Source: Gracilariopsis chorda | Lineage: Eukaryota; Rhodophyta; Florideophyceae; Gracilariales; Gracilariaceae | Length of the DNA stretch: 64,000 nucleotides | Reading direction: 5' to 3' | Assembly: GCA_003194525.1 (NCBI GenBank) | Contig: NBIV01000064.1 | Coordinates: 1-64,000 of the forward strand | In this document: piece after piece, positions 18,028-59,358 of the stretch | Position numbering within the stretch: position 1 is the stretch's first letter | How the letters are laid out: each line of letters begins with the position of its first letter | Notes under the pieces: model-generated | Told to the model about the DNA's origin: nothing | Database searches by the model: none | What the model saw: only the letters and a program-made list of their open reading frames with translations | Made by a program: the position numbers and the translations under genes

Positions 18028-18228
18028 TGTTATAGAATTGTAGCATTACGACCATTTACATTTGAATTCAAACATATGCACGTGAATGTTTGAATCTGAT
18101 TCAAACATACACAAACGGTTGTTAGCAGTTGTATAAGAACCGAACCCTTAGAGGGTTCGAAGTTGAATCGGAGGTAGCCTCCAGCAAGTTCAGAAGTAAA
18201 AGTTTAGTAAGAGTGAGCTACTCTTACA
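18028..18228 (+). repeat. 5' LTR of element A
   Basis: 201 bp, starting TG and ending CA, nearly identical to 34,229-34,429. It contains the hairpin AACCC...GGGTT around 18,142-18,160. Confidence 0.93.
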
Positions 18229-18341: not shown

Positions 18342-19301
18342 GTGATTGAGGCGTCAACGGTACTGCAGTTGCGTGAAGAATTGCAAAGTTTGCGAGACAC
18401 AGGTAACTCGCAGACCACCACAATCGGGAATCTACAGACTCAGTTACAGCAGAGCAGCCGACAGCCGCTCCTGGGAACTTCTAATATAATCATAGCACCA
18501 CCGGTTTCAAATTTCTCAGGCCAGGCTTCAGATTGGACCACAGAAAAAGTGATTAGCTTTTTCTTTTCAATTACGAAGTACGGAACGTTATGCAACTATT
18601 CGAAACAAAAAATGCTTGACTTAGCAGAGTGCTATTTTCAAGACAGAGCGGCTTCATGGATTTTGCGTCTGGAAAGGAAGAATATCAAACCGACAAGCCT
18701 GGAAGAACTCAAGAAAGCTATGCTTGAAGAGTTTTTGCCCGCAAAAGAGCAAGCTACAGCGCGGGTGAAGCTGATAGAGTTACGTTTGGAAGACAAAGAA
18801 TCCGTGGACGATCACATTGCTGAATTCAAAGACCTGGTTACGCCTTGTGGCACACAACGTAATAAAGCATACATATGCTTTTTTAGTAGTCTTTTGAAGA
18901 TGTATAAGGACAAATTTTCTGAACGATTTCCAACTTCGAAACCAAACGATCGTATGGGCAACGCTTATATGCAGCCAGCATATGAATACGCCAAGACCCT
19001 GGAGTTGCCTTTTAAGCTCGCAGACGAACAAACTAATTCTCATAAGGATCACGGGTCTAACAGAAACAGGAACAAAGTAGGAAAGAAAGGACAAAGCTCA
19101 AGTGCACCTAACGAAAAACGCAATACCTACAGGGACCCAAATACTATCAGCTGGGGTCCAATGAAGCGTGGGGAATTTGGCCTTTACAAGAAAAACGATC
19201 GATGCAGTAGATGTGGCACGAAAGGGTGGAGCGATCCTAACCATCCTTGCAGACAAGGCCAGACTAAAGAAAAGGAGTTCAAGCACTCAAAAAACGAGTG
19301 A
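18342..19301 (+). CDS. gag: Gag of element A
   Basis: Open frame of 319 codons; it opens near 18,288 and has no ATG at the 5' end, so the original start was probably lost (18,342 is a GTG). Residues about 60-230 have the look of a Retrotrans_gag capsid domain (helical, with WTTEKVISFFFSI, AASWILRLER and RLEDKESVDDHIAEF). The C-terminal part is basic, and near 19,202-19,252 it carries a Cys-x2-Cys...His...Cys cluster (RCSRCGTKGWSDPNHPC), an unusual zinc knuckle with a longer Cys-His spacing. Gag forms the particle shell and binds element RNA. The protease frame follows after 120 nt. Confidence 0.75.
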   Translation: MIEASTVLQLREELQSLRDTGNSQTTTIGNLQTQLQQSSRQPLLGTSNIIIAPPVSNFSGQASDWTTEKVISFFFSITKYGTLCNYSKQKMLDLAECYFQDRAASWILRLERKNIKPTSLEELKKAMLEEFLPAKEQATARVKLIELRLEDKESVDDHIAEFKDLVTPCGTQRNKAYICFFSSLLKMYKDKFSERFPTSKPNDRMGNAYMQPAYEYAKTLELPFKLADEQTNSHKDHGSNRNRNKVGKKGQSSSAPNEKRNTYRDPNTISWGPMKRGEFGLYKKNDRCSRCGTKGWSDPNHPCRQGQTKEKEFKHSKNE

Positions 19302-19420: not shown

Positions 19421-19720
19421 GTGAAGACAGTGGTGGATTCCTACTCCTCTCATATTTTTATGTCAATTGCAGACGCAAAAGAAATTAATCTAGAAATGAA
19501 GAAAATCGACCATGTGGAGATTGAATTAGGAGATTCATCAAAGAAAAAAGTACTTGGAGAAGTACATGGCGTCTTAAACATCAATGGGTTCATAAGTAAC
19601 GAGATGATTCTTATCCTCAGTATGAACAAACATTTTGAGAGACCAGTGATCATACTAGGACGAACTTGGTTATGCGAACACAATCCAAAGATTGATTTGC
19701 AAAGCAATGAACTCAAAATA
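19421..19720 (+). pseudogene. Protease segment of element A, cut by element B
   Basis: Retropepsin-like fragment: a degenerate active site VVDSYSSHIF (Asp-Ser-Tyr in place of Asp-Ser/Thr-Gly) and the late VIILGRTWL block. The natural reading frame runs into the target-duplication bases AAATA at 19,716-19,720 and continues after element B at 31,127. Residues beyond 19,720 in this frame come from the LTR of B. Loss of the active-site Gly makes it unlikely to work. Confidence 0.7.
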
Positions 19721-20552
19721 TGTGGTGCAATGCCCCAAAGGGGAATAACACCGAAAGACGTTCAGGATCTTCCTCTCACGAGGTGAACCCAGTTGGGTAG
19801 AGCTCTCCCAGAGGTATCACGGCGAAGCCGGTCTGTAAGACCAGGAACACCTGTCGCGACTTGCGCAGGGAGGTGAAGGCGAAGAATCAGTATCCGCGTG
19901 AGCGGGGTGTGATCCTCAGTAGAGGTATGTTTCCACGTAAGTGGGAATGTGTGAGCCGGTGCACACAGGAGAGCCGCGGGTAGCGGGATGTACTACCCTG
20001 AAAGGGGGAAAAGAGAAGAGTGGAGGGAAAGGAGGAAGAGTGGGCGAGGGTGAGTCGCGAGAGCGACGAACAAATACGGCAATGCCGGTGGACAGGACTC
20101 CCTATACAGGGCGAAACACCAATGTGATTGGAACAATTATACTCCCAAGGATGGGCCTCTTTAGACGTGCAAGGGAGTTAGGTGTCCCGTGGTTCACGGC
20201 GTTTCCCTCCAAGGAGGAGTAGAGCACGCGCGCAAGCGGTAACAACTAGAGCCAATTCCCCAGGTTGGGGTCCCTTGTTGGACAAGTTTTACTGGTGCGA
20301 CCGCAGTGCGCCGTCGCACTAAGTACTAGCTTCCCAGAAATGGGTGTGAAAATAATAAATAAAAGCAACTAAAATACTCCACATTTCGTGGCAACATCCA
20401 CTACTGTGGCCAACCGCCAATTGACCCAAAACCGTCTCCCACGTGTCCATACCCACCATTGTGGGGCGTAGTTCATATACACACTACACAACCGATAATA
20501 TCGGGAAAACGATCAAGTACCAGGAATCCTTCCCTGAGGGCGTTGCACTTCA
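19721..20552 (-). repeat. 3' LTR of element B
   Basis: 832 bp, same length as 30,295-31,126. Rich in tiny hairpins, for example ACCCA/TGGGT (19,787-19,798), CCTCC/GGAGG (20,206-20,217) and GTCGC/GCGAC near 20,055. The adjacent AT-rich stretch around 20,340-20,380 is a candidate promoter or polyadenylation region, but no motif decides it. Confidence 0.95.
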
Positions 20553-20566
20553 TATCCCCCCCTAAA
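20553..20566 (-). promoter_or_regulatory. Polypurine tract of element B
   Basis: On the plus strand this reads TATCCCCCCC; on the element's own strand it is a run of seven G followed by ATA, directly before the 3' LTR. This is the expected plus-strand DNA priming site. Confidence 0.7.
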
Positions 20567-20607: not shown

Positions 20608-22396
20608 ATGGGTGATAAAAGCGCGTGCTCTGTCTCCGGTTCTCCGGTAAATCCCTCTGCACCAGAGTCATGGAGCGCACAAACAACAACAACAGCCACC
20701 CTCGAAAAGGGAGAAATGAACAACAACAACAACATCAACAACCACAGCCAACCTCCGAGGCCTCTCGGGCGATACACCACCAGTTTCCGGTCAGTTCCTC
20801 TGCCTCAGGGCGATCGACATCCCGCACAACCGGGGAATATGGCTGCTGCAGTGGACCATCCCTTTGCACTACCACCTTCGGTGGGGTCCTCCGGAACCGC
20901 TCCGGCATTCAACTGGCCAACCTACAACACCCTGGTGGGGCTCAACCCGATGAATCGGAATCACGCGTCGCGCCTGCGCCTTGCCCAGGGGTTTCACCCG
21001 GTCGCTGTCCTCAATGAGGGATTGATCACCGCTTATGCGGATGGCTCAGACACCCTTCCGGTGGATCTGCCCAGAGCAGTCACCACATCGTGGGATTGGC
21101 GTCACCGGGTTGCGATTCTGCGTCACCACCTCCGAAAGAATTCGTGGGAGACCGTCGCTGCGGCGCAGACCGCGTTGACGCGCATGGCATACCAACGGCA
21201 GAGCCGGGCTCCATTGGATGTACCGGTCCCACCAGAGTTTGTCTTCGACGTTGGCCACTTCCGCACTCGCGGGGAGATTGGGTACGGCGAGAACCTGTCC
21301 CGCCTCGAGACCCTCGCTTGGAGGAATTTCCCTGCAGCGCGGCAAGAAGCCCTTTTGTTGGGAGCGACCGATTATTCGGGCGGAGTTCAGGTATCTTCCC
21401 CGGCAATACCTGTCCAACTTTCTCCAAAACTTCATCCGCTATGAGCGGCGTTGGCGATCCCGGTTCGGTTATTTCATCCCGTATCAGAACGTGGAGATAG
21501 AGCGGATTGCGCCGCCTCACTGACTGGGTCGGTATGTAGCACTCCCCGAGTGGTGGCGCTTCCATGAGGCCTGCCGGGGGTGCTACATAGAACTCCCGCC
21601 GGTACTTATTTACCTCGGTTCGCTGCTCATGCAGGATCCCCGGTCGGGGTTGTGGTCCGAAGTGGTTACAGAGTGCGCGGCCCGCGCTGCGGCTTATATC
21701 CTCAACGAGGCGTACGATCAGTTTCGTCTCTGGTTCCTTCCACCGCGTGTACAGGCAGCGATCCGCAATTTGGATCATCGAATCCCCCTTGGGGGCCGGG
21801 CCAACAATGAAGAAATCCTCCAATTACTTGGGTACATCGACAGCGTTAGCTGGAGTGAGGTCCCGCTGGAGCAAAGCGGTCGTCTGGATGGCGACAGCGG
21901 TAACACCGGTGGTCCGGGACTCGGTAGAAACACCGCCCTTGCGGGGGATTTTATCTACTTAGACCCCTGGGAGTTCCGGGCAATTTACTCCGAGGAGGCG
22001 CGCGAGCTTCGCGATGCGCCCCGGCATGTGCCGGACGACCACCCGGTGGCGTACGTCGATTCTGAAGACTACTACCGTGAATAAGGCAGGGAGGACCCAA
22101 TGGTCGATAACGAACCGGAAGAACCCGGGGAGATGGACGTAGAGGAAACCGGCGCTAGCGCGGAAGCTTTCCAAAAGGGGGTGTCTCCCGCCGAGCCGGC
22201 TGCTGACCCTTCAGCGGCAAGTGCTGGACCTTCTATCCCCAGCGGGGTGACGGCGAATGAAAACGAGATCATCGCACGTTTTCTCCGGGGTGCTGGTCTG
22301 AGCGCTGCCGAGGTATCGGGGGATGTCACCACTATGGCGGACGCGTTGGCCTACCGCCTCACTGGTGGTTACGCCCCGGGCGACGGCGAAGAGTGA
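20608..22396 (+). pseudogene. Antisense accessory ORF of element B (unknown protein)
   Basis: Plus-strand coding path opposite to gag-pol. Part 1 is 20,608-21,444 (278 codons) in one frame; a frameshift near 21,345-21,400 moves to a second frame that runs through a TGA (21,521-21,523) and a TAA (22,082-22,084) to 22,396. Read through, it would be nearly 600 residues: an Asn-rich N terminus (NNNNNINNHSQPP), a central region with Trp/Arg blocks (WDWRHRVA, GYFIPY, YLGSLLMQDPRSGLW) and an acidic C terminus (EPEEPGEMDVEE). No known domain is recognised. An old relative in element E (57,863-59,358, minus) conserves the protein, and its counterpart of the TGA region is open, so the breaks look specific to this copy. 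Antisense ORFs near the 3' LTR are known in some plant Gypsy elements; homology to those is not claimed. Confidence 0.75.
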
Positions 22397-22584: not shown

Positions 22585-24414
22585 TTAGCCGACTTGGGCA
22601 TTAACCAGCGTGGCTGGGGCTGCAGTTCCCGTTTGACGGTGGTATCGCACGACCTGCGATCGTGGGAAGTGTTCAATTGGCTCCCATGTATCCCCATTGG
22701 GCTCATACCCGTACCAGCCGACACGGTATTGTAGAATACCATCCTGGTCCCAGCTGTGTCCGACAAGTCGGTCTACTACGAACTCTCGTTCGTAGACCTG
22801 CCGGCCGTGCCGGGTGGTGGTTGTATTTCCTTGTGAGGGTTGCCCGCGGTGCGGTATAATGTCCCTTAGCAGGGTGTTCGGTGATAACTCCGGCGTTGCC
22901 GTGCGATGTGGTAGCGGCCGCTGCTCGTGCGGGAGGATATCTCTCAAGAGGGTGTTTGGCGAAACGCTCTTCACCGCCAAGGTATTCCCCAAAGGGGCGT
23001 CGTTGTTCCCGTCACCACGGTAGGCCGTGCGAACCGCCAGTCGGTTGGGGACTTGAACTCCGCGAGTGCGGTCTTTTTCGCGAACCGCGAGCTTGCGGGG
23101 TCTTTGCTGCGTATGCGGGAACGGCGTTTGTGACATCCCCTGCAGGGTCCCGTGCGACACGGTGATTGGTAAGCGTTCCACCTCCCTGCCAGGTGCACGA
23201 GCACTCTGCACCATACGTTCCGGCGACGCCGTGGTGTCCCCGGCTACTGACGGATTGCCTGGGGCTAACTCCGGTACACCGGTATTTTGGTCAAAATTGC
23301 CCTTTGGGGGGTGCCGGGCAGGTGCAGATGACACCCTTTTCAGGAGCCTTGCCGCTAAGCGCGGTGCACCCTCTCCATGAGGAGGGCCAGCGTCCAGTAC
23401 GACCGGTTTCGAGCGTGCGATGGCGCGCGTTTTTCCCGAGTTCCTCAGTTCTTCGCCACAGCGTTGCGGACGTTGGTGCAAATTATTCCCCGGAGCGGGG
23501 GCTTCGATTCCGTCGACGACGGGACGCGTTTCCGGCGCTTGCGCGCCAGGGTCTGAAGCTTCGACTGCGGCTTGGCTGCCTTTTTCCCTGACAGGGGTGT
23601 GCGGTAGTTGCGCTTCAACCTCCCATGTAGCACGGTATAATTGCCGCTTTTGCGGGGCCTGCGCGTCTGGTTCTTGTTGCGCAGCACTGCCCGAGAACCG
23701 GGGATTAGTGTCATGTGACATACTCCGTGCTCCACGGTCAGTATTCCGTATGTTCCGTGTTTCTCGTTGCGACGGCGATAGCGTTTCTCGAAAACGAGTG
23801 TTCTCCTCCCCCTCCTCAGACGGAGCGGCGGGATAAGGGATAACATTCTCCGCCTGGCGGCTATAAATTCGCGCCAGGGGGGCGGGCGTGGAAGGGGCGG
23901 GCGCTGAGTTGCCCGAATTACCCAGCTGAGCCGGTGAATCCGACAGGGTCGGTAGGTCTGAGAGTTCCCGGCTGGGGTGTGGTAGTACCGTAGGCCTAGT
24001 ACTCCCGGATGATTCCGGTGTTGCAGAGTCCGTAGAAACGGGGTTGCCTGGATCCAGGACTACCTCTGACGAGGGAGGAGGGGCAAGGACAACACGATCA
24101 CGGGAAATCCATTCGTGCGTGTCGCCCATATCTACCACGACAGTGTCGGTGTTCACAGAGATGACCTTGAATGGTCCATCCGCCACAGGCGAGAGTTTAT
24201 GGCGCTTCTCCCGTTCCGGGTTGTAGTACTCCTTCCTGATGAAGACGTAGTTATTCGCCCGAATCAGGGACGGTTTCCCTCGCAAGCGAGCATCAAAATC
24301 CCGCTTGTAAGCGGCTCGAGCCCGTGCCATCGACTTCCGCGCAGCGGGGACCAGCTTGGAAAGCCATTGCTTCCATTGCTGCCGGTAGATACCCACTGAT
24401 GGGAAATCGTCCAA
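22585..24414 (-). CDS. pol: C-terminal pol of element B with chromodomain
   Basis: 609 codons, in the same frame as the upstream pol segments and separated from them by in-frame stops. Residues about 10-115 are the integrase C-terminal region (AYKRDFDARL, KEYYNPEREKRHKLSPVADGPFKV, the tether/GPY-like module). A long Pro/Ser/Arg-rich linker (about 120-535) follows. Residues about 541-591 form a chromodomain (YEREFVVDRLVG, LQYRVGWYGYEPNGDTWEP) with the typical aromatic residues. Chromodomains of Gypsy integrases direct insertion to marked chromatin. The very long linker between integrase and chromodomain is unusual. Confidence 0.9.
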   Translation of the reverse strand: MDDFPSVGIYRQQWKQWLSKLVPAARKSMARARAAYKRDFDARLRGKPSLIRANNYVFIRKEYYNPEREKRHKLSPVADGPFKVISVNTDTVVVDMGDTHEWISRDRVVLAPPPSSEVVLDPGNPVSTDSATPESSGSTRPTVLPHPSRELSDLPTLSDSPAQLGNSGNSAPAPSTPAPLARIYSRQAENVIPYPAAPSEEGEENTRFRETLSPSQRETRNIRNTDRGARSMSHDTNPRFSGSAAQQEPDAQAPQKRQLYRATWEVEAQLPHTPVREKGSQAAVEASDPGAQAPETRPVVDGIEAPAPGNNLHQRPQRCGEELRNSGKTRAIARSKPVVLDAGPPHGEGAPRLAARLLKRVSSAPARHPPKGNFDQNTGVPELAPGNPSVAGDTTASPERMVQSARAPGREVERLPITVSHGTLQGMSQTPFPHTQQRPRKLAVREKDRTRGVQVPNRLAVRTAYRGDGNNDAPLGNTLAVKSVSPNTLLRDILPHEQRPLPHRTATPELSPNTLLRDIIPHRGQPSQGNTTTTRHGRQVYEREFVVDRLVGHSWDQDGILQYRVGWYGYEPNGDTWEPIEHFPRSQVVRYHRQTGTAAPATLVNAQVG

Positions 24415-24768: not shown

Positions 24769-27700
24769 CTAGGCCACCGTGAGAGCGGTTATCCTCCGAA
24801 GAGGGACGGTTCGTACCAGGTTAGAATAGTGGTCGGTAATGACAAGTAGAAACTTGTTTCCACGTTTCGTGGTGAGTAGTGGTCCGAGAATATCGATCTC
24901 GATAAACTGGAGCGGTGCCCTTGTGGGGAATAGTTTCATCTTCTTCGCATTTTTGCGGAGTTTCACGCGATTCTTCGCGCATTCGCTACAAAACCGCACG
25001 GTTGCGTAGCAATCCACCGCCATGGCGGGCCAATCTAAATCCCTTCGCAGGGTTAGGTAGAGTTTCCTCCCACCTGGGTGACCTCCAATGGGGGCATAGT
25101 GTGATAGATGTAACACCCGTGACTGCAGGGAATGAGGTATCACAATCTGTGGGCGGGCTTCGACCTTCCGTACGAGGTAGCCTTTGTCGTTTACCCCGAA
25201 AGGGAGATCTTCACCACCGTTGATACGGGCACGAACCCTCGTACAGAATGGGTCGCCGAATTGTTCTCGGACCATATCTTCCGGTGATACCGGTACAAAG
25301 TTTCCCGGTATCGGGTTCTCAGATTCTTCTCGCAATGCGAGTAGTTCGTCAAATTCCACATCCTCGTCCCAGTTTTCTGGCCCAGCCTCGACGGCACATT
25401 CCGGATTATCCGGATCCATGGCCATGAAACATGGGACTTCATCATCCTCCGTTGGGATTGCTTCCCCATTTGTGGGTAAACGCGACAGGGCGTTGGCTTG
25501 GGTGTTCTGCGCGCCCTTTTTATAAATGACTTGAAAGTCATATTCCGCGAGGCGGAGTCTCCAGCGCATGAGGCGTCCCGACAGGTCGGATATATTCATT
25601 AGCCACCTCAATGAGGAATGATCCGTGTACACGGTGAAGTGAACTCCCATAAGGTAGGGGCGCAGAGTGGTCATCGCCCATACGACGGCGAGGCACTCTT
25701 TCTCCGATACAGAGTAGTTCCGCTCATGAACATTGAGCGAGCGCGACCAATAACCAATTGGGTGTCGTTCCCCTTCGGGGCTGGTTTGAAAAAGAGCACA
25801 CCTGACTTGGTAGTTGCCGGAGTCCGTATGTACGGAGTATGGCAACCCAAGTTTTGGGAGATGTAGGATTGGTGCAGATGTGACAGCCTCCTTCAAGGAG
25901 TTAAAGGCTTCCGATTGCTCGGGCGTAAATGTTCCCAGTTTTGGGGGGTTCCCCTTTTGCAACAACGCGTTCAGAGGCGCCGCGGTATCCGAAAAATTCG
26001 GGGTAAACCGTCGATAGACGTCGACCAGCCCCAAAAAGAAGCGCAGTTTCGTTTGAGTACGTGGCCCTTTCGCCTTAACGAGGGATTTGACTCGAGTTTT
26101 CTCAATCGCTAACCGTCCAGGACGGATAATGTGACCCAGATACTTCACAGTATCTGTGAAAAACTCGCATTTCCTCAACTTGAGGTTAATTCCCGCATCG
26201 AGGAGTACGGTCAGCACGTCTCGGACGTGAGTGAGATGGTCGTCCAACGAGTTGTAAAAGATGATAATATCATCAAGATAGACCAGACACCTCCGCCACT
26301 TAAAGCGGTTGAGTAGAATATGTACTGCACGCTGAAAGGTGGCGGGGGAGTTGGTTAACCCAAATGGCATCCGCTTGAAGCGGTACGTTCCTGCGTGGCA
26401 GGTGAATGCGGTTTTGTCGCGATCCTCCTGTCTGACAGGTACTTGCCAATATCCCCAATTGGCATCGAGAACCGTGAACACGGTGGTGTCTCCGAGGGAT
26501 TCAATAAACTCTTTCATACGAGGGATAAGGTACGTGTCCCTAACAGTCACGGCATTGATCCGGCGGTAGTCGGCAAAGAACCTCCAGGTTCCGTCGGCCT
26601 TCAAATGCAGTACAACTGGGGATGCCCAGGGTGATTGAGCGGGCTCAATCTCACCTGCGCGGAGCATCTTGTCCACTTGGGACTGCTCCTCTTCCCGAGC
26701 TTTCGGACCTGCCCTGTAAGGGGGTTTTGCAACCGGTCGCGCACCGGGGAGTAAATCGATCGGGTTTTCCGTTGCATTAATCTCGCCAAGCGAGCCATCC
26801 CAAATTGTGGTGAATTCCCGTAAAATTGTACGGAGTTTGTCGCAATGTGACTCTGGCACGTCGCTGAAGCCCATCGCTTCAAGTGCCTTTTCCGGATCAA
26901 TCCGGTCGTTGCTCGATGGAGCATTGTCTTGTGGAACAGGTGTGGTTCGCAATTCCGAGTTACTCGGTATGTTCGACGCTGAAGTAGCGGTTTCCTCCCC
27001 CTCCTTAGACTTGATGTCTTCGGACGGCGAGGCGAACTCCTCATAAGGGGTGGTAACTCCGAGTACATCGGCGGCTGTCATCTTCGTTGGCAGCATTCCC
27101 ATAGTATGGGGGGTTACACTCCCAATTACTTGGTGTTTTATTAGATACTGGGGATGTTTGCCAAGGTTGGCAACCAATATCCGGAAAGGAACATCCGGGG
27201 AAATGGAGACAATTCCATTAGCCAGCGCCAGCTGAGACTTATCGTACAACGAAGCGAGGGGTTGTATAACTCGAAGACCGTGTTGACGGGAATTTACCTG
27301 CACCCAGACTTGGGACTCAGGCCGTATAGAAACCGAGGCAGCGACGTGGAGCTTGGTGTTCTCTCGGGACGCGGGCGGTGGTTCCTGCGCAGCAGGGAGC
27401 GGAACTTTTTTCCGAGAGGACCGCTTTAGCGGGCGGGGAACAATCGGAACCGACGATCCGTCGTCAAGTTCTACACGCTTGAGGCGGGGCCTGATTGCGT
27501 CGACAAATCTGTCGCAGTAATCACATCCCAGTATGACTGGTGCTGCCAATGAACGGCAAACGATGAATTCCAACTTCACCACAGAGGTACCAAGTCTCAC
27601 GACGAGGTCCATTGTGCCCACCATTTGTAACGGATTGTTGTTCGCATCCGAAATGTCGGGGACCGCGTCAGAGCGGATACGAGACCGCACAAGCGGGGGT

Positions 27701-27996
27701 AACAATGATTCCACAACAAAGTTGGGGCCTGCACCTGTATCCAGGACGGTGAGAAGCCTCACCATAACCTGGGGATCAAGGCCAAGGTCAGCATAGACCT
27801 TGTAATTGCGCTTGGCCAAGACCAAGACTCTACCCGGAATCCCGGGATTTTTACTGCGTATCCACGAGCGACGCAAAACACCGAGGTGCGTAGAGTCGGC
27901 GTCAGCGGTGTCTTTCCTCGAGAGGACTGTCACCAGGGAGCGAGACGAGGATGCCTCGGGCGCCAGCAGCCTCTTGTCTGAGGACGCCTCTCCCAA
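24769..27996 (-). CDS. pol: Pol of element B: protease, RT, RNase H, integrase N-term
   Basis: 1,075 codons. Protease active site LDTG at 85-88 with a VILGCDY block (154-160). Reverse transcriptase about 425-640: WASPVVLHLKADGTWRF, FGLTNSPATFQ and the catalytic YLDD (573-576). RNase H about 715-830: HTDSGNYQ, SEKECLAVVWA, YTDHSSLRWL. Integrase starts near 965 with the zinc motif H966, H973, C1003, C1006 and the first catalytic Asp, D1035. All key residues are intact, so this was functional recently. It makes and integrates element cDNA inside Gag particles. It begins 18 nt after the gag frame ends, in a different frame, so expression would need a frameshift or a separate start. Confidence 0.95.
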   Translation of the reverse strand: MGEASSDKRLLAPEASSSRSLVTVLSRKDTADADSTHLGVLRRSWIRSKNPGIPGRVLVLAKRNYKVYADLGLDPQVMVRLLTVLDTGAGPNFVVESLLPPLVRSRIRSDAVPDISDANNNPLQMVGTMDLVVRLGTSVVKLEFIVCRSLAAPVILGCDYCDRFVDAIRPRLKRVELDDGSSVPIVPRPLKRSSRKKVPLPAAQEPPPASRENTKLHVAASVSIRPESQVWVQVNSRQHGLRVIQPLASLYDKSQLALANGIVSISPDVPFRILVANLGKHPQYLIKHQVIGSVTPHTMGMLPTKMTAADVLGVTTPYEEFASPSEDIKSKEGEETATSASNIPSNSELRTTPVPQDNAPSSNDRIDPEKALEAMGFSDVPESHCDKLRTILREFTTIWDGSLGEINATENPIDLLPGARPVAKPPYRAGPKAREEEQSQVDKMLRAGEIEPAQSPWASPVVLHLKADGTWRFFADYRRINAVTVRDTYLIPRMKEFIESLGDTTVFTVLDANWGYWQVPVRQEDRDKTAFTCHAGTYRFKRMPFGLTNSPATFQRAVHILLNRFKWRRCLVYLDDIIIFYNSLDDHLTHVRDVLTVLLDAGINLKLRKCEFFTDTVKYLGHIIRPGRLAIEKTRVKSLVKAKGPRTQTKLRFFLGLVDVYRRFTPNFSDTAAPLNALLQKGNPPKLGTFTPEQSEAFNSLKEAVTSAPILHLPKLGLPYSVHTDSGNYQVRCALFQTSPEGERHPIGYWSRSLNVHERNYSVSEKECLAVVWAMTTLRPYLMGVHFTVYTDHSSLRWLMNISDLSGRLMRWRLRLAEYDFQVIYKKGAQNTQANALSRLPTNGEAIPTEDDEVPCFMAMDPDNPECAVEAGPENWDEDVEFDELLALREESENPIPGNFVPVSPEDMVREQFGDPFCTRVRARINGGEDLPFGVNDKGYLVRKVEARPQIVIPHSLQSRVLHLSHYAPIGGHPGGRKLYLTLRRDLDWPAMAVDCYATVRFCSECAKNRVKLRKNAKKMKLFPTRAPLQFIEIDILGPLLTTKRGNKFLLVITDHYSNLVRTVPLRRITALTVA

Positions 27997-28013: not shown

Positions 28014-30189
28014 TTAGTTTTCCGCCTTCGGCGGTGGGTTGGTTTCCTCAACAACGAGTGCTTCATCCCGTTGACGGGGGTTTCTATCCGCATAAGCGGG
28101 GGTTGCAACGGATGGTTGCGTTATCTCCCGAATCGGGGTGTATGAAGCTTGCTGCGCACGCGGGGTCTGTGGTAGGGCATGGGAAAAGTCCGTTTTAGCA
28201 CGGAGGTAGGAAGCCGTCAGGACGGAACGTTTCTCCTCTGGAGTGAGGGCCTCGTAGTTTGCCACCACCTTTGCCATATCCTTCAGTGAGCAGATACACT
28301 GAGGCGAGGTATGGCCATGGGCATAACAAAGGTGTCAAATGAGAGCCAACACCGCGATACGCGGATTATTATTCCGAGTATCGGAGAAGCGATCTGCAGG
28401 GCGGGTGTCAGTCCATCCAGGCCGTTGATAACGGTAATGACCGTTTGAAAACGGGAGTCGTTGGGGTTGGACCCGATAGTTACCACCGTATAGAACGGGA
28501 TCTTCTGTTCCCGTATCACGGGTCATCTCCGTCGTCGACTGCAAATCACTGGTCGGTATCGACACACCATCCCCCTGCACTAAATTCACGGTATCAAATC
28601 CCTGTTCAGGGTTCCCATCCGCAGTGAGCGGGAGTGAGGAAGCTTCGCTTTCCAGCAACAACGCCTTGGCGAATTTAGACCAATTGTTCGGAGTTCTTGC
28701 ACGAAGTGCATCCCCTTCTGCTCGAGCGTGTTGGAACAGCTCGAGATAGGTGATCCTCCGCTTGTCCTCCCGATAACGGGTAACTAAACTCCGGATTGCC
28801 GGGTCAAGACCATCGATGAACATGGTACTGCGCTCCCCAGCGGGGTATATGTTACCACATCTGTGGAAAGCCTTGTTAAAGCGCACCGAGTAATCGGTCT
28901 CGGTCTCTCCAGCACGCTGGCGTGTATCTCGCAAAGCGAGGATAGCCTGCTGAGTGGCGTTGTTTGTGGCTTAGGAGCGCAGAAGATACTGCACAGTCTC
29001 CGTCCAGCAAGTAACCCCTCCCTGGGAGGCACGAGAAGATCCTCTGACAGAGTTGTATTGGTCCTCCGCCACTCCCCGTAAGAAATAAGATAAAGCCAAA
29101 TAGGCTTGTCTCTCATTCATACCGAGGGTATCGGCCTCCGCTAGGAAGCGGGATAAGAAATCCAGTACTAGGACTGGGTCCGCTCCAGTAAAATACTGGT
29201 TGCGGAGCGAGAGCTGCATTCGATTAATGCATTCTCGCACCTTTCCCGTACCACGGGGCGTACGTCCAAGTGACGAATCTTCGAGCCGGTAGTACCGGTA
29301 TGATAAAAGATTCCGGTAATCCGGGTTGGTCGGTTTCAACTCCGGGAGACCGGCGTGTCTTCTCCCCTTCTGACGGGTTTGGATCACACCTTCAGTGGCC
29401 GATGACCGCTTCGAGCGGGAGGAGTAGCCTCGCTTCTCGTCCTCCGAGTCGGAGTCCGAGGAGCTCGAGCTAATTGAATGGTTTCGGGATGAGTCTGACG
29501 ATGTCGATGAATCGGTGTCCGAATATTTTTTGGTGGTGTTTCCGTCGATGACTGCGTTTCTTCTTTCCAACAAGCTGGTCGTTGTGCGATGCCTCGTTTA
29601 CTGGATCATCCGGGGATGGTTTGTCTATGAGAAAGAACTGCTCCAGCGTCTCCAGGCGGCCACCAATCCGATCAAATCGGGCTTCCACTCCTTCGATAAA
29701 GGTGGCAGGTTCTCCCAAACTCTCCAAAACGGAGTTGACGTCAGACCGTAAAATACGGAGTTCCTCGGCAACCTCCTTTACGGGGGTTGCAAAGACCACC
29801 TCTTGGAGGGATTTTAGTTCCCCTACAAGGGAGTCATGGGCGGTCCACAGAGCGCGGACCTGGGATTTCAGGGAAGTCCCCTGGGGTGTGTTATCGCTCG
29901 TTCCACGGGGGCTTAAAGCAGCGACAGCGGGAGCAGGCCGGGGTGCCTGGGGCACTGCGGCAACAGCCGGAGTCGATGCTGCATTCCCCTGCGGGGGTGA
30001 TAACGAGAGCAAAAGGAGGTTCCGGGGTTCCCGGTCGGGGGTATCATTCCGCAATGAAGCGGAGCCAGCACGGCTGGAACTTGTCCGTATAGGGATACGG
30101 GGTACGAACCGAAACTCGGAAGTGTCCGCGTTGTCGCGAGAGCGACTACGCGTAACCACTGGCTCCGCATCGAAGGGATTACTCGACAT
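28014..30189 (-). pseudogene. gag: Gag of element B (frameshifted, with stops)
   Basis: Starts at ATG 30,189 (MSSNPFDAEP), just inside the 5' LTR. The first part (to about 29,525) carries a Pro/Ala-rich region and a coiled-coil-like stretch. At a six-A run (29,525-29,530 on the plus strand) the frame must shift by +1 to continue into the Ser/Asp-rich part (SDTDSSTSSDSS), then the capsid-like region (PDPVLVLDFLSRFLAEAD-like, about 29,230-29,050; RQRAGETETDYSVRFNKAF, about 28,920). Stops interrupt at 28,971 and 28,335. After the second stop lies a compact zinc knuckle, CYAHGHTSPQC (about 28,330-28,300). The shift may be a one-base insertion in the A run or a programmed event. Confidence 0.8.
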
Positions 30190-30294
30190 GGGGAAATAAA
30201 GGTACGACGGGAAACGATCACGTAACTTCCGGTGAATGAAAGCAAACCTCGTTGGAGGGAAAACAAAAACCGATTCTAGGTCAGAAGACAACTT

Positions 30295-31126
30295 TGTGGT
30301 GCAATGCCCCAAATGGTAAAAACACCGAAAGACGTTCGGGATCTTCCTCTCACGAGGTGAACCCAGTTGGGTAGAGCTCTCCCAGAGGTGTCACGGCGAA
30401 GCCGGTTTGTAAGACCAGGGACACCTGTCTCGACTTGCGCAGGGAGTTGAAGGCGAAGAATCAGTATCCGCGTGAGCGGGGTGTGATCCTCAGTAGAGGT
30501 ATGTTTCCACGTAAGTGGGAATGTGTGAGCCGGTGCACACAGGAGGGCCGCGGGTAGCGGGATGTACTACCCTGAAAGGGGGAAAGCAGAAGAGTGAAGG
30601 GAAAGGAGGAAGAGTGGGCGAGGGTGAGTCGCGAGAGCGACGAACAAATACGGCAATGCCGGTGGACAGGACTCCCTATACAGGGCGAAACACCAATGTG
30701 ATTGGAACAATTATACTCCCAAGGATGGGCCTCTTTAGACGTGCAAGGGGGTTAGGTGTCCCGTGGTTCACGGCGTTTCCCTCCAAGGAGGAGTAGAGCA
30801 CGCGCGCAAGCGGTAAAAACTAGAGCCAATTCCCCAGGTTGGGGTCCCTTGTTGGGGAAGATTTACTGGTGCGACCGCAGTGTGCCGTCGCATTAAGTAC
30901 TAGCTTCCCAGAAATGGGTGTGAAAATAATCAATAAAGGCAACTAAAATACTCCACATTTTGTGGCAACATCCACTACTGTGGCCAACCGCCAATTGACC
31001 CAAACCCGTCTCCCACATGTACATACCCACCATTGTGGGGCATAGTTCATATACACACTACACAACCGATAATATCGGGAAAACGATCAAGTACCAGGAA
31101 TCCCTCCCTGAGGGCGTTGCACTTCA
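30295..31126 (-). repeat. 5' LTR of element B
   Basis: 832 bp partner of 19,721-20,552. The bases next to it inside the element (plus strand ...CAGAAGACAACTT) do not give a TGG-type primer site on the minus strand, so B may use a different priming mode from elements A and C. Confidence 0.95.
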
Positions 31127-31227
31127 AAATAAAGCGTAGTAATGGACCTATACCAACGATAGTTCCGAGAAAAGAACATTCTCAATCATCAAAAGATGTT
31201 TGTTTCAAAACGATATCGTGAAAGAAG

Positions 31228-34173
31228 ATGCCCAAAGAAGTCAAGAAGGAAGAATCTGGACTCTTTGCAGTGAAAGTGATAGAGAAGAAAGACTCCCCAG
31301 GCTCTCAACTAGAATTTGCTCCAGAATTTCGAGGTCTATTGACAGAGTTCAAGGATATTTTTAAGGAAGAGTTACCGGATGAGTTGCCGGATGAGTTGCC
31401 GGATGAGTTGCCTCTGCCACGTGGAATGGAATTTAAAATTAACTTCATACTGGGTGCACAACTTCCGGTTCGACCCGTCATTAAGCTCTCACCTCTTGAA
31501 TTACAGGAGCTACAGAAACAACTACAGAATTATCTATCCAAGGGACTGCTAAGGCCTTCCTCTTCACCTTACGGAGCTCCAGTGTTCTTCATTAGGACGA
31601 AGAACGGAGATCTCAGAATGGTGTGTGACTATATGGAGTTAAACAAGATAACGATCCCGCATGTAACCCCAATACCGCTTATCAATGAGACCATTGATCA
31701 GGTAGCCGGGGTAAATATCTTTTCACAGATCGATTTAATTTGGGGTTATCATCAGATGAAACTCAAGGAAGAAGAGTATCACAAAACCGCCATACGAACA
31801 AGGTCTGGATCTTTTGAATGGAGAGTCTTATGTTTTGGACTAACCAACGCACCAGCTGCATTCTCAAGACTACTGGCACATCTTCTCCAGGAGCTACATG
31901 CTAGATGTATGGTTCTCTACTTGGATGACATACTCATCTATAGTAATAAAAAATAGGAGCGCAGGCAGCATCTGCAACAGCTATTTAGAATATTGAGGAA
32001 ACACAAATTGTATGTCAGGCCCAGCAAGAGCAACTTTGGGGCAACAGACTTCAAATATTTGGGTTTCAAAATCAATGCAGAAGGAGTGCATACTCAAAGA
32101 AGACTTGTGAAAGCAGTAGAAGACACCGTTCCGACATCAGTGAAGGATGTGCAGAAATTTATTGGTCTTGCGAACTTCTACAGAAGATTTATCAAAGGAT
32201 TTGCACAAGTAGCACGGCCAATTACAGATATTCTCCTATCGAAGAATTTTCAGTGGAAAGAAGAACCGAAATCAGCGTCTGAAAATCTCAAATGACTAAC
32301 TACAGCGCCAGTCTTACGCCACCCTTCCTCAGAAGAACTTTTTGCGTTGACCACTGAGGCATCCAAATACGCCGTAGGAGCTACTTTGGAACAGAAAGGC
32401 CAACCAATTGGGTTTCTATCCCATCGTCTCTCCGAGATGGAAACAAGATGGGATACAGGAGACCAAGAATTATTGGCAGTAATGATCGCATTACGGGAAT
32501 GGGCGGTATATCTAAGAGATTGGCCATTCATCATACCCACGGATCATGAACCCATCAAATACTTGCAGACGAATTCAAAGCTCTCAAGGGGACAAATGAG
32601 GTGGCTTGACGAATTACAGTGCTACAAGTTCCAAGTGGAACACATCAAGAGCTCAAATAATGGATCAGCAGATGCGTTAAGCAGACTGTACGACAAGCAC
32701 CCAATGTTCAAAGCACTTCGTCTGAACGACAAAGACTTCTTGACAGCGATTCGGAACGGATACGAACAAGATGTGTGTACGAAGAGTTTATTATCAGTAC
32801 TTCGGGACGGAAAGCCACCGTCGAGCAAGAAGTTAGCAATGCATCTCTCTAACTATTCTTTCAGAGAAGGTTTGATTTATTGGAATTCGAAGGGCTCATC
32901 ATAACGTGTGGTACTTCCACAAGACGGTAACCTTGGACATGTAATTACGAACAAATTCCATTCACCTGGACGTTTTAGCTGCGAGAAGACATATTTACTC
33001 TGTAGCCGACATTTTTACTGGAAAAGAATGTATACAAATATCCAAGATTATGTCTGACGATGTCAAGATTGCCAATTTAACAAGGAATCAAGAACTATGA
33101 AAGTAGGAATGTTGCAGCTACATGAAGTACCAGAGTCGTGTTGGGACACGGTGTCAATGGAATGTGTTTCTGAGTTTCCTCTAAGCCGTTCAGAAAAAGA
33201 CTCAGTGCTTGTTGTGGTTGGAAACCTTTCGAAAAGAGCTATCTTCATACCTATGAAGAAGACCTTAACTGCCATGGAAGTGGTTCAGTTGCTACTTGAT
33301 CACATTTTTTCTAAGCATGGAGTGTTAAAGACTATCATTCTAGATAGAGACAAATTGTTCATATCACATTACTTCAAGGACATCACCAGGATGATGAATA
33401 TAGAACTGAACATGGCCTCCAAGGGACATCCACAGACAGATTGTCAGTCGAAAAATAAGATCCGGACACTATCATCTATGATTCGAAGCACTGTACAGAC
33501 GAATCCTTCAGGATGGGACACCATGCTAAGCGAACTAGAGTTTTATAACAACTCTACGCCCCACAAAAGCACAGGAATATCTCCCTTTGAGGTGGATATC
33601 GGTCGCATACCTGAGACAGAGCTTTCGAGAAAGATTTCGAAAACGCAAGCAGTCTGTCTGGCAGCAGTCGACTATTTAGAAAGATTTCAAGCGTTCTGTA
33701 GAATTGAAAAGGACAACTTGATTAATGCAATTGCACGACAGACGTTTTACGCAAACAGAAACCGAGGCCATGTGGAATTCAAAGTTGGTGATTTGGTGCA
33801 ATTGAAGGTCGATAGTACCAGTGCAGCTCAAAAATCGGGGCTTGCAAAGAAATGACAACCAAAGTTCATGGGACCATTTGCAGTGAAGCAAGTATTGGGT
33901 CCAGTAACTTACAAGATTGAGTTATCATCATCTATGAAAAAAGCTCAAAATGTTTTTCATGTTACACGATTACGGAAGTTTATTCGAAAAGATGGGGATC
34001 AGAATTCTCTTTATGTTTTCATTGATGCAGAAGGCACCGTAGAGCAAGAAGTTATTGCTATACTCGATTCACGAAGACATAATCGCAATAAGCAGTACTT
34101 AGTTCAATTTGAGACAGATGCCGAAGAAGAAGCCATCTGGATGAACAATAGTGAACTATCGAACTGTTCATAA
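31228..34173 (+). pseudogene. pol: Pol of element A: RT, RNase H, integrase
   Basis: One frame with in-frame stops at 31,954, 32,293, 32,902 and 33,853, plus one at 31,219 just before it. RT: YGAPVFFIRTKNGDLRMV, FGLTNAPAAF and YLDD near 31,917. RNase H: TTEASKYAVGA, TDHEPIKYLQ, SADALSRLY. Integrase: a degraded His/Cys module, then VVVGNLSK (Asp to Gly) and LDRDKLF, with GHPQTDCQSKNK where the catalytic Glu has become Lys. A degenerate chromodomain-like end (EQEVIAILDSRR...YLVQFE) closes it. A 12-nt unit coding PDEL is repeated in tandem near 31,375-31,412. RT motifs are intact but integrase residues are lost, so the copy is dead. Confidence 0.9.
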
Positions 34174-34228: not shown

Positions 34229-34429
34229 TATCATAGAATTGTAGCATTACGACCATTCAATTTTGAATTCAAACATATGGACGTGAATGTTTGAATCTGA
34301 TTCAAATATACACGAACGGTTGTTAGCAGTTGTATAAGAACCGAACCCTTAGAGGGTTCGAAGTAGAATCGGAGGTAGCCTCCAGCAAGTTCAGAAGTAA
34401 AAGTTTGGTAAGAGTGAGCTACTCTTACA
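34229..34429 (+). repeat. 3' LTR of element A
   Basis: 201 bp. It begins TATCATAG where the 5' LTR has TGTTATAG, so the terminal TG has mutated to TA. It ends CA, followed by target duplication ATATC (34,430-34,434). Confidence 0.93.
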
Positions 34430-37943: not shown

Positions 37944-38136
37944 TGTAGGCAGACGTGCCGTGAGCTGTTTCGTACGGTCCGTAACGCTGGTGTCAAGCAA
38001 GGACATCAGCCGCCGTCGCCGGCCGCCGCCGTAGAGCGTAGGTAGATAAGACGGTAGAAGGTAAAGCCTAACATTCATCGACTATCGAACACCTCCGAGC
38101 CCGTTCAGGCCGCTTCCCAGACCGCAACGGACTACA
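37944..38136 (+). repeat. 5' LTR of element D
   Basis: 193 bp, TGTAGGCAGAC...CGGACTACA, pairing with 43,029-43,221. It includes a CCGCCGTCGCCGG-type GC-rich core near 38,008-38,030. Confidence 0.93.
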
Positions 38137-38242
38137 GTGATCACTACGGTTTGTTTACCCTTTCACGGTCAATCCCGTTAGATTATTCGATCACCGATCG
38201 CCCCGCCGTACCCGGACACGCTAACCGCTTCCGGACAGGACG

Positions 38243-42367: not shown

Positions 42368-42475
42368 CCCACTCCGCCTATCGGTACATTTCTAAGGACG
42401 GAAACGGCCAAGCCGATTACCATTTCCGAAGCGGAGCGCGAGCGCACCATAAACATTCATGCACTCAAGCAACGT

Positions 42476-43018: not shown

Positions 43019-43028
43019 AAGAGGGGAG

Positions 43029-44249: not shown

Positions 44250-44326
44250 CGAATGGCCTTGCTCTACATCTTGGAATAGGACACCTCAGCGAAGGGGACG
44301 AGAACTCCATAAACGCTGAGCGTAAT

Positions 44327-46602: not shown

Positions 46603-46603
46603 T

Positions 46604-46613
46604 TGGTAGCATC
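46604..46613 (+). promoter_or_regulatory. Primer binding site of element C
   Basis: TGGTAGCATC, identical to the ten bases in element A. The two elements are otherwise unlike, which supports a common tRNA primer. Confidence 0.65.
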
Positions 46614-54449: not shown

Positions 54450-55900
54450 ATGCCTGAGTTGAACTGATGCCACGTCTGTACCGAATAATTCATAATCCAC
54501 CTTGCCTAGACGGTATGCGCATTGGCATTGGTCTACAAATGTGACCCGCTATGTACGCAAATTCTCGCCACAATGTAGGATATGACTTACCGTCTTCGAT
54601 AAATGAACAGGGATAACTTTTCAGGCTGGTAACTTCTTCCTAACCGATTGTGGTATCCCACTTCTTACAGAGACATGTTCTCGAACGTTCTCACTATGTG
54701 AAACTGGGAGCACACCCAGGGGGGTTGGAAGCTATATCTGACTCTCCGCAGATGTTTGTATTAGCCCGTCATGTCGCTGGGCTGTTATTCAGCTTGCCGT
54801 TCTTTTACGGAATGCGCTAAGAACAATGGGAACCTACCGAAATAATATAAGTATATAACGCTGTTCTAAGCTCGCGCACCGCTGAAATTAGTGGCCATCA
54901 ATATACTCCGCGAGATGATTCGGACAACCTGAGGAAACCGATATATCCTGGTAATAACCAATTGGTTTCCTAAACTCGTACGGACGGTGATGCTTCAAAT
55001 TGTTACCGCCGCAGTGGTGGCACCAGCCTTTTCCACGCACTGAGTGTTCGTTTACGGTCCACCCGTCGATTTACTATCCGAAAATGGTCCCTAGTTTACG
55101 TCAAAGTTCTTCCAGGAAGTGTGCTGTATTTTAGATATTCGAATTATGTTCGTCACTAAATATCACCCGCAGGGTTGTTGACAACTGAAGCGATCCAATT
55201 CTACGCTACTAAACGCATTAGGAGTCTCTGTTGCACATCACCCCAAGTATTGGGAGAAGTATACCGATGCAGTTACGTATGCCTACAATACCCAGGTGCA
55301 TGGGCTTACGACACTCTCACCTTTTGATTTGATTCTGTCGTGAATCCCACCCCTGGTGGCAAGTGAGGCTCAACCGATATCAAAAGCGTACCTTTTAACG
55401 TGATTAAACAAGAACAGCCGGAGGGAATGGTTAAAGAGCATAGTATCGGTTGCGCAGAAAGCTGTGGGCAAAGCTCAACTCGCATACAAGTGTAATTTCG
55501 ACGGCAAGCTCTGCCAACCTCTACCGCAGGTTAACCCAAATTACTTCGCTTTCCGTCGTCAGGAGTACTATAATCCTAAAAAGTAAAAGCGTTGTATGCT
55601 TTCTATAATAGTGGATGGACCCTTTTGCGTGGTTTCTAATGCCAACGACATAGTTGTCTTGGACATTCAATACAATCACAACCGGGTTTCAAGCAAACGT
55701 GTTACTCTATCGTCTCCCTCTCATCCAACGTTTGGCACCGGAAATACCTGTGACGGTAGCCTGGAATCAGAAGACCCACTCGCGTTTCATTTTCCATCGC
55801 GCCAGGCGATTCTACAGCATCCGGATTTTGGTTTATCGGATTTGCCGTAGAAAACGGATCTCATTCTTTAAGGCAAGTCCCCGGATACCCTGGTGCGTAC
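54450..55900 (+). pseudogene. Integrase and tether of element E
   Basis: Recovered in pieces that align with B: CDPLCTQILATM, PIVVSHFLQ, SHYVKLGAHPGG (zinc module start), KLVRTVMLQIVTA, VFVYGPPVDLLSENG (the catalytic SDN of B has become SEN), FTSKFFQEVCCILD, TLLNALGVSVAHHPKYWE, VTYAYNTQVHG and the tether AYKCNFDGKL...QEYYNPKK. Frameshifts and stops between them show long decay. It resumes right after solo LTR F. Confidence 0.8.
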
Positions 55901-57862
55901 CTCTCAAGTTAACCTCCCACCCAACCTAATCACCCCCATGTTTTAGCCTAAAGAGGGTAGGGGAGTTGCAATGGCTGTCGATTTACCGGCGTCCCCAGGA
56001 AAGATTCTTCTTGAACAACAAAATGCTTATAAAAAAGTGCAAGATTTGGAACTGGAACACCGCACGAAACATGAGAGCCCCGCTACGGAAAGCTGTCGAA
56101 GGGCGAACACAGCTGTACCAGTGCCTGCCTTTGTCGCTAGCCGGCTGGAAACAGGGCTTCGCAATAGCAGTACCACGCAAAGGGTTGCTTCTCGGAATAA
56201 TGGCGAGCCACGCCCGCTGTCAAGCGACCCTGAATTGGGTTACCTGGATGAGGACGACGAACTTGATTGGCTGTGCACCACAAATTGATGAGTGTAGTCC
56301 TTGATTGGTGGGAAGAGCGACACTTTCGTGGAATTCTTGAAGATGTAGAACGATGAGACATCCACCACGGCGTGCGGGATGTTGACGCCTACGTGCCTCA
56401 CACAACGCAGAGCCGGTATATGCATGTGGAAGTAACACGCTTACAGCGTCGCGTAGTACTAAGATTCACAAATAACGAAAATCGTACCCATGTACAAGAC
56501 AATCCATTGCACCTACAGGGAAGGGTTTTCTTGAAGTGGTACGGAAACTGTGTGTACATCTGGCGGCGACAGTCATCTAGTCAGGATACAGTTAGCAAGA
56601 AACGTATCCAGTCGACCCCCCTCTAAGCGCAAGGAGTGCGGCACACGAGCATCTTCGTCACAATGTGGTCTTGACTCTGTCAGGAACTACCCGAATCTCA
56701 AATGCTACCACTCGTCAGTTACTTACTCTTGGAGGCTCACGTGAGAACGTATTACTCAGGACGAGAGTGCGCGAGTCCTATCTTTTCATACCCTCAATGA
56801 TACAATACTACTCTTATAACGGAAGTTTTTGTTCGGCCGATTCGACAGACGCGCGGAAAGTAAATTTAAGGTCCCTGGCGACCCAGGGGCGGAATACCCT
56901 CGCTGAAGGTTGCAAAAGAGTCTCTGGCTACCCCGTGAGGGTCCTCTAGTACGGAAAGCCGTCATGGGAGACGATAAATCGGACACTAATTCCGGAGAAC
57001 TCGTAATCGATCACATCGTGCGTCACTAATATGTACCACAAGCGGTGGTTTATTTCCAAACCCGTTGATATGGACACACTCCGCAAGGGGACACGATATA
57101 ACCCATCGGGCACCTGCCTAGTTTAGAGGTCTTTTGATACCACCGAAAGAATTGGACAACCACACAAGTAACGTTGGATAACGTCCAAGGTAGGGTGGAC
57201 CCATACCCGTTCCGCGAAGGGTAATACGTGACCGCAAAGCGGAGACGCTAGAAGAAAAGAAGAAGAAGAAGAAGCTCATGGATGGAACAAGAAGTTGATG
57301 AAATGTACTACTTAGGAGATTACCAGATTAACTTTTATACCAGATTAACGGTTTAAAGAAGAGCATTCATGATGATGAAGAACACTATGACATGGAGAAT
57401 GCAGAAGAACCATGAAGAAAGAAGTACGAAGAACCACAAGTTTGCTTTACTCCAGAGGCTATCGCATGATCTGTCACTGAAAAATGATGGTCAGAATGCT
57501 GAGTACAAGTTATTCCAAAAAAGAGCTTGCAACAGAATGGCTGGTTGACTGAAATTACTTCGCCGTGGCTGGGGCCAGGAGTTGTCCAACATCTATCATG
57601 TCCAGAGGTACCGGGATTTCAACTTTTTGGAATTTGTAACGGAACGCGATGACGTGAGCGTCACAAACGAAGGCGGTACGTTTCTTAGAGGTTACAGTTC
57701 ACTCAACTTAGTTACTAAGCCCTACCCCATGGTAGTGCCCGATTGGATGGACGCCCGAGCGTTGCTCAGGTCAACCGAATCCATTATCGGTCCATGGTAA
57801 ACGTTTTCACTCTAGTTGGCCTCATCACCCATTATCGGATAATCGAAGTCCATCAATGGCTC
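55901..57862. other. Decayed linker region of element E
   Basis: Position equivalent to the linker-chromodomain of B. A short frame at 55,971-56,288 is linker-like. A possible chromodomain scar (LQGRVFLKWYGN...YIW) at about 56,515-56,565 is weak. Small hairpins are common (for example CCCCGTGAGGG near 56,932), and a GAA run lies at about 57,250-57,273. A 72-codon plus frame at 57,582-57,800 is unrecognised. Confidence 0.4.
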
Positions 57863-59358
57863 TTAATAGTCACAAAACATGAATCCTGTCGGATGAGTGG
57901 CTGAAATGGTCCGCGAAAAAACTGCTTTGGTCGAATGCGTCAGCACGGGACACTGTAGCACACCCACCTGCGGGTCGTAATAAGCGAAGTCCCTAGCAGC
58001 TGGATGCAGGCGTATTTGAGACTTGTCATAAGATTTTCTTGGACCTTGAAGACGGTGTTCCCACAAAGTGGTATCCCAGTTGACCTCGTCAATCACATCC
58101 AAGATGCATAAGACCTCATCCATAATGTCTTGGCATCCCCATGAGATTACCAGGTCGAGCTGTTTGATTATATTCCGAACTTGGACGGTATGAACCGGAG
58201 ACGGTAGTTTTCATACGCTTCCATGAGAAGGAAGACCGGTGCGCAGGCAGCTCACTCTGCGGCATTGAGTGGCCAGAAACCAAATTTTGGATCATCAATG
58301 AGGAAGGAACTTATATAAGTCTGACAGGGAGGCAATTCCAGGAAAAACCCCTTGGGTATCTCAATCTGAAGCAGCCAGGGTGGTAAAGCTGCGATTAGAC
58401 CCTTGAAAGGTTGCAGGAGATAATTTTCGGTTCCGAAATAAGTGTACGGAATAAGATACCCGTGTCGGGAACCCGTCTTGCGCTCAAACCGAATCCTTTC
58501 GGAGAACGCCGCTTGCCTATCGGAACCTCAGAAGAGCCTATACTCTGCAGGGATGATTTGTCTCGCTCAACAAAGCATATTGGGATCAATGGTTACCTGC
58601 ATCAGGGTTTCAAAGTGAGCCATGTCCAATTGGGCCAAATTGACCTCATAGGATACTACACCATAGGTCCGATACTTCGAGAGGTCAAAATCGCATTTGC
58701 TGGGAATCATGTGCTGACTCGGAGTGCACATGAGCTGTTTATTGGCGAGTCACTTCATTTCTTCTCGGGCTCTATCCACGTTCTCTCCACGGCGCGGATC
58801 TATGTTTAGGAGGTTAGGATCCTACGCAATGCGTCTTCTCCAATCACCGGAAGTGATCGAATCCCGTAGAGGCCCACCGAAGAGAACGCCGTCGTGTGCA
58901 TATAATTGGTCCAGTGGTAGGTTGAAAACCTCAGGCGGGTGAAACCAAGGCGTTTGCGCATAAATCGACGGATTTTGTAACGGATCCTCTGCTTTCAAGG
59001 TTACCCTGTGGACAACCCATAGTCGGTTGATGACAACCAGAGTCCCCAGAGCGAATTACAACGCGCGAAAGGGTACTACAACGGTTACAAGAGCGCAATC
59101 TTGAGACAATGGTGCCATAGGGAACCGGCTCATTCCAGAAGACGAAGGAGCAATCCTCCCAGACTGCGAATCACACGCTCCGGGATTGTGCTGGTTGTGA
59201 TTGTTGAAGTTAAGTGGTGGAGACGAAGTATCGGGTTCGATATTGTAGGTGCTCATCAGTCGCCTTATGCTTCGAACTAGATGAAGGTCGGTATCACTGA
59301 AGAAGAACTGGATTTTGTTTACCATTTTTTGCCTGCCAGTCATTCGCTCTCCGTGCAA
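57863..59358 (-). pseudogene. Antisense accessory protein of element E (homolog of B ORF)
   Basis: Minus-strand remnants align in order with the plus-strand ORF of B. They are: an Asn-rich N-terminal part (NFNNHNQHNPG, about 59,200), WFHPPEVFN and DSITSGDWRRRIA (about 58,945-58,825), FDLSKYRTYGVVSYEVNLAQ (about 58,690-58,635), IRFERKTGSRHGYLIPY (about 58,497-58,449), ELPPCQTYISSFLIDDPKFGFW (two adjoining pieces, about 58,340-58,279), MEAYENYRLRFIP (about 58,230-58,190) and DIMDEVLCILDVIDEVNW (about 58,123-58,070). Shared residues differ from B mostly at third codon positions. Frameshifts and stops are present. Confidence 0.75.

Follow-up and report, generated by a model that had tools for sequence, protein, structure and literature searches.

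Introduction

Antisense genes located behind pol are known in retrotransposons of plants and in one fungal element, Boty (PMC7264820). For the plant antisense ORFs (aORFs), regulatory roles have been proposed, while the available text of PMC7264820 and PMC11963269 calls their function unknown; for Grande, transcription from its own antisense promoter has been reported. In the plant elements Grande, RIRE2 and Retand the antisense ORF lies between pol and the 3′ LTR, and we found the same arrangement in red-algal elements. The DNA analysed here is a stretch of 64,000 nucleotides from Gracilariopsis chorda (hereafter the window), in which a sequence-only reading had reported an ORF opposite the gag-pol of one retrotransposon (element B) and had likened it to antisense ORFs of plant Gypsy elements. 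The comparison was apt, as the place and orientation are those of the class described as aORF-3R.

Structure of element B and its antisense ORF

Element B belongs to the Ty3/Gypsy chromoviruses; its gag-pol is encoded on the minus strand, and its LTRs have TG...CA ends (Table 1). Its aORF occupies positions 20608-22396 of the plus strand between the chromodomain and the 3′ LTR, with the ATG 56 nt internal to the LTR and the other end roughly 190 bp away from the stop codon of pol. An antisense coding region is thus present as claimed, but in B it runs through two frames and is not the single plus-strand ORF that had been described, this copy being disrupted by one frameshift and two stops. Intact genomic copies of the B-type aORF encode about 595 aa: among 20 copies fetched for their long open frames in a genome search with the B protein, 19 contained a single ORF of 593-613 aa, and the remaining copy had an ORF of 559 aa. 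The gag-region ORFs gave no Pfam match above the cut-off.

Table 1. Coordinates of features of elements B and E in the window
Feature	Position	Strand	Remarks
Element B aORF, residues 1-250, in frame	20608..21357	+
Element B aORF, residues 246-595 and stop codon, shifted frame, decayed	21344..22396	+	stops at 21521 and 22082
Element B 3′ LTR (relative to gag-pol)	19721..20552	-	832 bp, 28 differences from the other LTR
Element B 5′ LTR	30295..31126	-	pair of 19721..20552
Element B target-site duplication AAATA	left 19716..19720, right 31127-31131	.
Element B polypurine tract adjoining the 3′ LTR	20556..20566	-	C-run on the + strand, from sequence
Element B pol: RT, RNase H, integrase zinc-binding domain	24772..27996	-	PF00078, PF17917, PF17921
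Element B pol end: integrase C-terminal region and chromodomain	22588..24414	-	Chromo at about 22663-22782, PF00385, E 1e-8
Element B gag region, three overlapping or adjacent ORFs	28338..30312	-	gag by position only
Element E aORF relic	57869..59001	-	5 stops in 374 aligned codons
Element E integrase and chromodomain remains	54563..57188	+	convergent with the E aORF relic
Element E further pol pieces	44291-45777	+

Several further observations concern element B and other parts of the window. In the pol of these elements, several hundred residues separate the integrase part from the chromodomain (22588-24414 in the window). Element B is seemingly nested in an older LTR element with 197-bp direct repeats at 18032-18228 and 34233-34429 (96%), which shows a gag-like ORF (identified by eye) at 18342-19301 (+) and pol similarity at 31267-32820 (+), one on either side of B. 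At 37944-43221, ORFs lie between 193-bp repeats (91%), with weak pol similarity at 40157-41476; a 471-aa ORF there, at 38243, had no Pfam match.

Copies, families and taxonomic distribution

The B-protein search of the 91.3-Mb assembly (1,081 contigs) scored at least 139 places out of 1,554 candidates, so the aORF is present in many copies. The matched region, about 250 residues long, was free of stops in 119 of the 139, which are top matches from a ranking that favours intact copies. Searches with the related proteins P0003, P0006, P0005 and P0007 revealed further families, many with long stop-free frames, and at least six further element families of this genome carry aORF relatives. Between families, aORF proteins share 30-62% identity (eight representatives of seven families, selected for being intact).

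The aORF was convergent with pol at every locus that allowed a decision. Among 65 of the scored B-type aORF places, 19 had a scored pol end no more than 2 kb away, convergent in all 19, and the gap between aORF and pol end was 195-210 bp in the 13 places with exact match ends. A chromodomain was located downstream of, and convergent with, the aORF in 34 of 42 loci (L029-L070). Six of the remaining eight belong to the P3 family (L029-L034) and had too little flank; two of these showed a chromodomain on the far side only, taken to be that of a neighbouring element, and one P3 copy, after extension, had a convergent pol end about 1.5 kb on. The other two (L035 and L059) are short loci. The LTR pair was mapped for B, and the other families were placed by the downstream pol end and, in some, also by a polypurine-tract-like sequence before the ATG. 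Specifically, families B, P3, P7 and P5 have a run of at least five C that begins 44-55 nt ahead of the antisense ATG; F38 had an interrupted pyrimidine run at that place (by eye), and no such C-run preceded the ATG in L042, L053 and L049. In several families a pyrimidine stretch with AG after it, close to the edge of the LTR, suggested a splice acceptor; this candidate was dropped because the polypurine tract itself forces such a stretch.

Protein distances of the aORF and the chromodomain agreed (Mantel r 0.81 for eight representatives of seven families; 2 of about 8,064 sampled permutations as high), which argues for long co-inheritance, though the chromodomain is short. The aORF has diverged together with pol. 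This joint divergence bears on the idea that the elements carry a captured host gene, as might be suspected from the four annotated G. chorda proteins that match the aORF (P0003, P0007, P0008 and P0018). Protein searches gave no host family, however, and a convergent chromodomain stands beside the place of P0007 and also beside a sister copy of P0003, so we regard capture of a host gene as very unlikely. P0003 is BWQ96_03215 of Gracilariopsis chorda, with a genome match of 100% over residues 1-491. The NCBI gene models P0003 and P0007 (L029, L072) call the aORFs 'hypothetical protein' and omit stretches of element sequence, possibly as modelled introns.

In protein searches that scored about 8,000 candidates each, the aORF relatives with a named source were all from Gracilariaceae, namely G. 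chorda, Gracilaria domingensis (P0004) and, with seven proteins, Agarophyton chilense; the rest were from the 'ena' and 'lgn' sets. In a tree of 24 proteins, whose deepest split is weakly supported, the G. chorda members fell into two groups, one that also includes G. domingensis and a second placed next to A. chilense. Given vertical inheritance, the split between the aORF families is therefore probably older than that between these genera.

The relic in element E

The sequence-only reading had proposed that a decayed element, E, carries the antisense protein of B on its minus strand. Our data bear this out, with pol on the plus strand, the relic on the minus strand and a homologous stretch of about 57,869-59,001. 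The relic matched its nearest family, L057, with E = 2.9e-61 and 39% identity, and family B with about 1e-36; chance likeness to the aORF proteins is excluded. Since the relic is nearest to L057, B and E are only distantly related, and the blocks common to both are therefore what selection left. In the antisense frame, pN was 0.40 and pS 0.77 against L057, and 0.44 and 0.83 against B, pS being saturated in both comparisons; omega was low in the mirror sense frame as well, at 0.30-0.37, and that frame contained 26-27 stop codons.

Two repeat structures accompany element E. An LTR element with 655-bp repeats (95%) at 45950-53526, showing pol similarity at 49408-51360 (+), seemingly lies inside E and splits its pol. 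Around the 3′ part of E lie two copies, inverted to each other, of a sequence of about 920 bp with 74% identity, at 53617-54535 and 59387-60308.

Selection on the antisense frame

We estimated dN/dS by Nei-Gojobori counts for 14 pairs, six between and eight within families. In the antisense frame, omega for the six between-family pairs was 0.17, 0.18, 0.24, 0.25, 0.29 and 0.30, with dS at 1.0-3.6 and hence partly saturated; sense frames 1 and 3, like the remaining two forward frames, gave 0.92-2.23. Sense frame 2 was also low, at 0.37-0.50, but it is the mirror of the coding frame and contained 32-49 stop codons in these pairs. Representatives of six families, selected for an intact antisense ORF, had 6-31 stops in each other frame. 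The aORF thus encodes a protein under purifying selection, which is strong between families, in agreement with the earlier claim of selection on the antisense protein.

Within families the signal was weaker. The eight within-family pairs ranged from 0.27 to 0.79, and pooled omega was 0.35 for B (20 copies), 0.62 for the L049 family (7) and 0.82 for the L057 family (5), as expected if many differences in young families arose after insertion. The codon argument first offered, that B and E differ mainly at third positions, is partly circular, because residues picked as identical must differ mostly there; its conclusion is nevertheless upheld by the pN/pS values, which are free of that conditioning. 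The codon data also weigh against the ORF being incidental and the antisense RNA alone mattering through double-stranded RNA regulation. Antisense transcripts of plant elements may act in this way (PMC7264820), but with the between-family constraint lying in the protein frame we consider such a role extremely unlikely here.

Features of the encoded protein

The earlier statement that no domain can be recognised stands. Pfam searches, run at E up to 1 for the L011-derived B protein and up to 0.1 for 25 homologs, and also with C-terminal pieces, gave nothing better than E 0.029, and Transposase_28 (PF04195) matched neither the B protein nor the 25 homologs at these thresholds. PHROG gave no match for four aORF proteins, the PDB sequence search no match and IMG/VR no relative. 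The weak Pfam hints were E3_binding (best E 0.029, 2 of 25 members) and Ish1 (0.092, 1 of 25), with a best E of 0.12 for seven C-terminal pieces; given such weak hints, we do not claim a SAP/LEM-like domain in the C-terminal helix pair.

AlphaFold reached a pLDDT of 37.5 with an alignment of eight proteins and 72 with one of 25 headed by P0012. The P0012 model is predicted mostly at 85-97 over residues 21-390 (blocks 60-97), and this folded core is followed by a disordered stretch and then by a helical C-terminal part of lower confidence. Foldseek with this model found nothing convincing in PDB (two matches, best E 5.7) or BFVD (six, best E 2.3), which does not in itself prove a new fold.

A protein of about 600 aa with a modelled folded core, located between integrase and the 3′ LTR, could be a structural particle protein, either env-like or a second capsid, in the position of env but on the opposite strand. 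Transmembrane segments are commonly called at a 19-residue hydropathy mean of 1.6, and two of ten proteins exceeded it (L049, 1.85; L042, 1.65), whereas the other eight peaked at 0.93-1.52. Antisense placement would uncouple the dosage from that of gag-pol, an env-like aORF requires sense orientation, and PDB and BFVD offered no structural match; we therefore rate a particle protein as quite improbable. Net charge in the central fifth was positive in eight of the ten proteins, while overall pI was 5.1-6.7 and the modelled P0012 has a net negative central fifth.

Shortage of lysine

Intact aORF copies contain 0-10 lysines as against about 50-65 arginines. The 20 B copies have 0-5 lysines, 13 of them none after residue 60, and their lysine-free runs span 285-577 residues. 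In 17 other intact copies, lysine numbered 2-10 and arginine 52-65, with lysine-free runs that reached 467 and 510 in the pair of P3 copies and ranged over 133-293 in the remaining 15. Control ORFs had lysine/arginine counts of 53/86 (pol), 18/63 (integrase-chromodomain part), 12/27, 7/23 and 4/23 (gag region) and 30/53, 26/39 and 18/21 (three others), with longest lysine-free runs of 71-172. Long lysine-free stretches thus characterise B and P3 and are less marked elsewhere, and outside B, P3 and F38 the runs (133-224) are not far from the controls. Among database relatives, P0017 has 1 lysine and 53 arginines, and P0006 is the least depleted (20 and 73). Across families the protein has been kept lysine-poor and arginine-rich.

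Base composition accounts for part of the shortage, since codon-position frequencies predict 10-15 lysines where 4-8 were observed (six representatives). Of the 206 private changes in B copies, 10 were to lysine, compared with 21 of 2,740 residues at columns variable between families. The resulting ratio of 0.16 was the lowest of the 20 residues (Fisher p 2.7e-5; cysteine next, 0.27), in a test that treats residues that are not independent and covers the aORF only, without a pol yardstick. We read this pattern as lysines arising by mutation and rarely being kept, which would amount to long-term selection against lysine. The E relic has 13 lysines versus 4 in its intact relative and 24 arginines versus 46 (374 aligned positions), a shift that CpG decay of arginine codons would push the same way.

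Scarcity of lysine across families and species also suits a lysine-poor adaptor within the ubiquitin system that would steer a host ubiquitin ligase to a silencing or restriction factor, like some retroviral accessory proteins, and lysine deserts are described as prevalent in ubiquitin-proteasome components (available text of PMC10169902). Yet no ubiquitin-system domain appeared among the Pfam matches of 25 members (E up to 0.1) and no fold match in PDB or BFVD, and we hold such an adaptor to be unlikely.

Proposed role

The best explanation is an antisense accessory gene of a group of red-algal Ty3/Gypsy chromoviruses, situated between the 3′ LTR and the chromodomain of pol. From the sequence we infer its transcription and function: the mRNA would start at an antisense promoter located within the 3′ LTR or next to it, and the product would be a trans-acting regulatory protein active in the host cell. 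The part in RNA handling or host silencing that the sequence-only reading suggested is likewise a conjecture. To judge by composition, the protein most likely binds nucleic acid through its arginine-rich core. The shortage of lysine, by analogy with lysine-desert proteins (PMC10169902), may allow escape from ubiquitin-dependent turnover, such that low antisense expression would still yield lasting protein. We consider this account as a whole, an accessory antisense gene for a putative nucleic-acid-binding, lysine-poor regulator that escapes turnover, somewhat probable. A more far-reaching version, in which a new-fold antisense protein made lysine-poor by selection acts on or survives the host ubiquitin system while countering silencing, as an independent Vif- or HBZ-like strategy in red algae, is offered as a doubtful proposition. 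In either case, lysine shortage provides a testable handle on mechanism, and because one protein family occurs across several lineages of red-algal elements in well over 100 copies, the selection acting on this protein is open to direct measurement.

Comparison with known systems

As had been suspected, this appears to be a previously undescribed accessory family: Pfam, PHROG and PDB gave no match, and a search of open-licence PMC literature showed no description of such an ORF in retrotransposons of red algae. We regard it as a new protein family within a known architecture, the antisense ORF between pol and 3′ LTR; within the searched literature the family, its host group and its lysine shortage appear undescribed.

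The deltaretroviral genes HBZ and APH-2 are also antisense genes near the 3′ LTR, and in HTLV, in the text available, the antisense promoter lies in the 3′ LTR; the likeness is one of description, with no such relative among the aORF protein matches. Long lysine-free stretches are shared with the lysine-desert proteins San1, Slx5, UBQLN1, BAG6 and RAD23A (PMC10169902). Known lysine deserts, as described there, are prevalent in disordered proteins, whereas the lysine-poor part of the aORF includes a predicted folded core, and no ubiquitin-system domain was found in the aORF proteins in the Pfam searches.

The closest parallel is aORF-3R as described in PMC7264820, which agrees in place, orientation, presence in many copies and lack of clear relatives among known proteins. 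The Transposase_28 domain (PF04195) of the Retand type is not matched by the red-algal aORF, and the other plant and Boty proteins are likened to it by architecture only. The red-algal elements end pol with a chromodomain, whereas Retand belongs to a non-chromovirus lineage (PMC11963269, available text). The red-algal host and the lysine-poor protein set this aORF apart from the plant and Boty systems.
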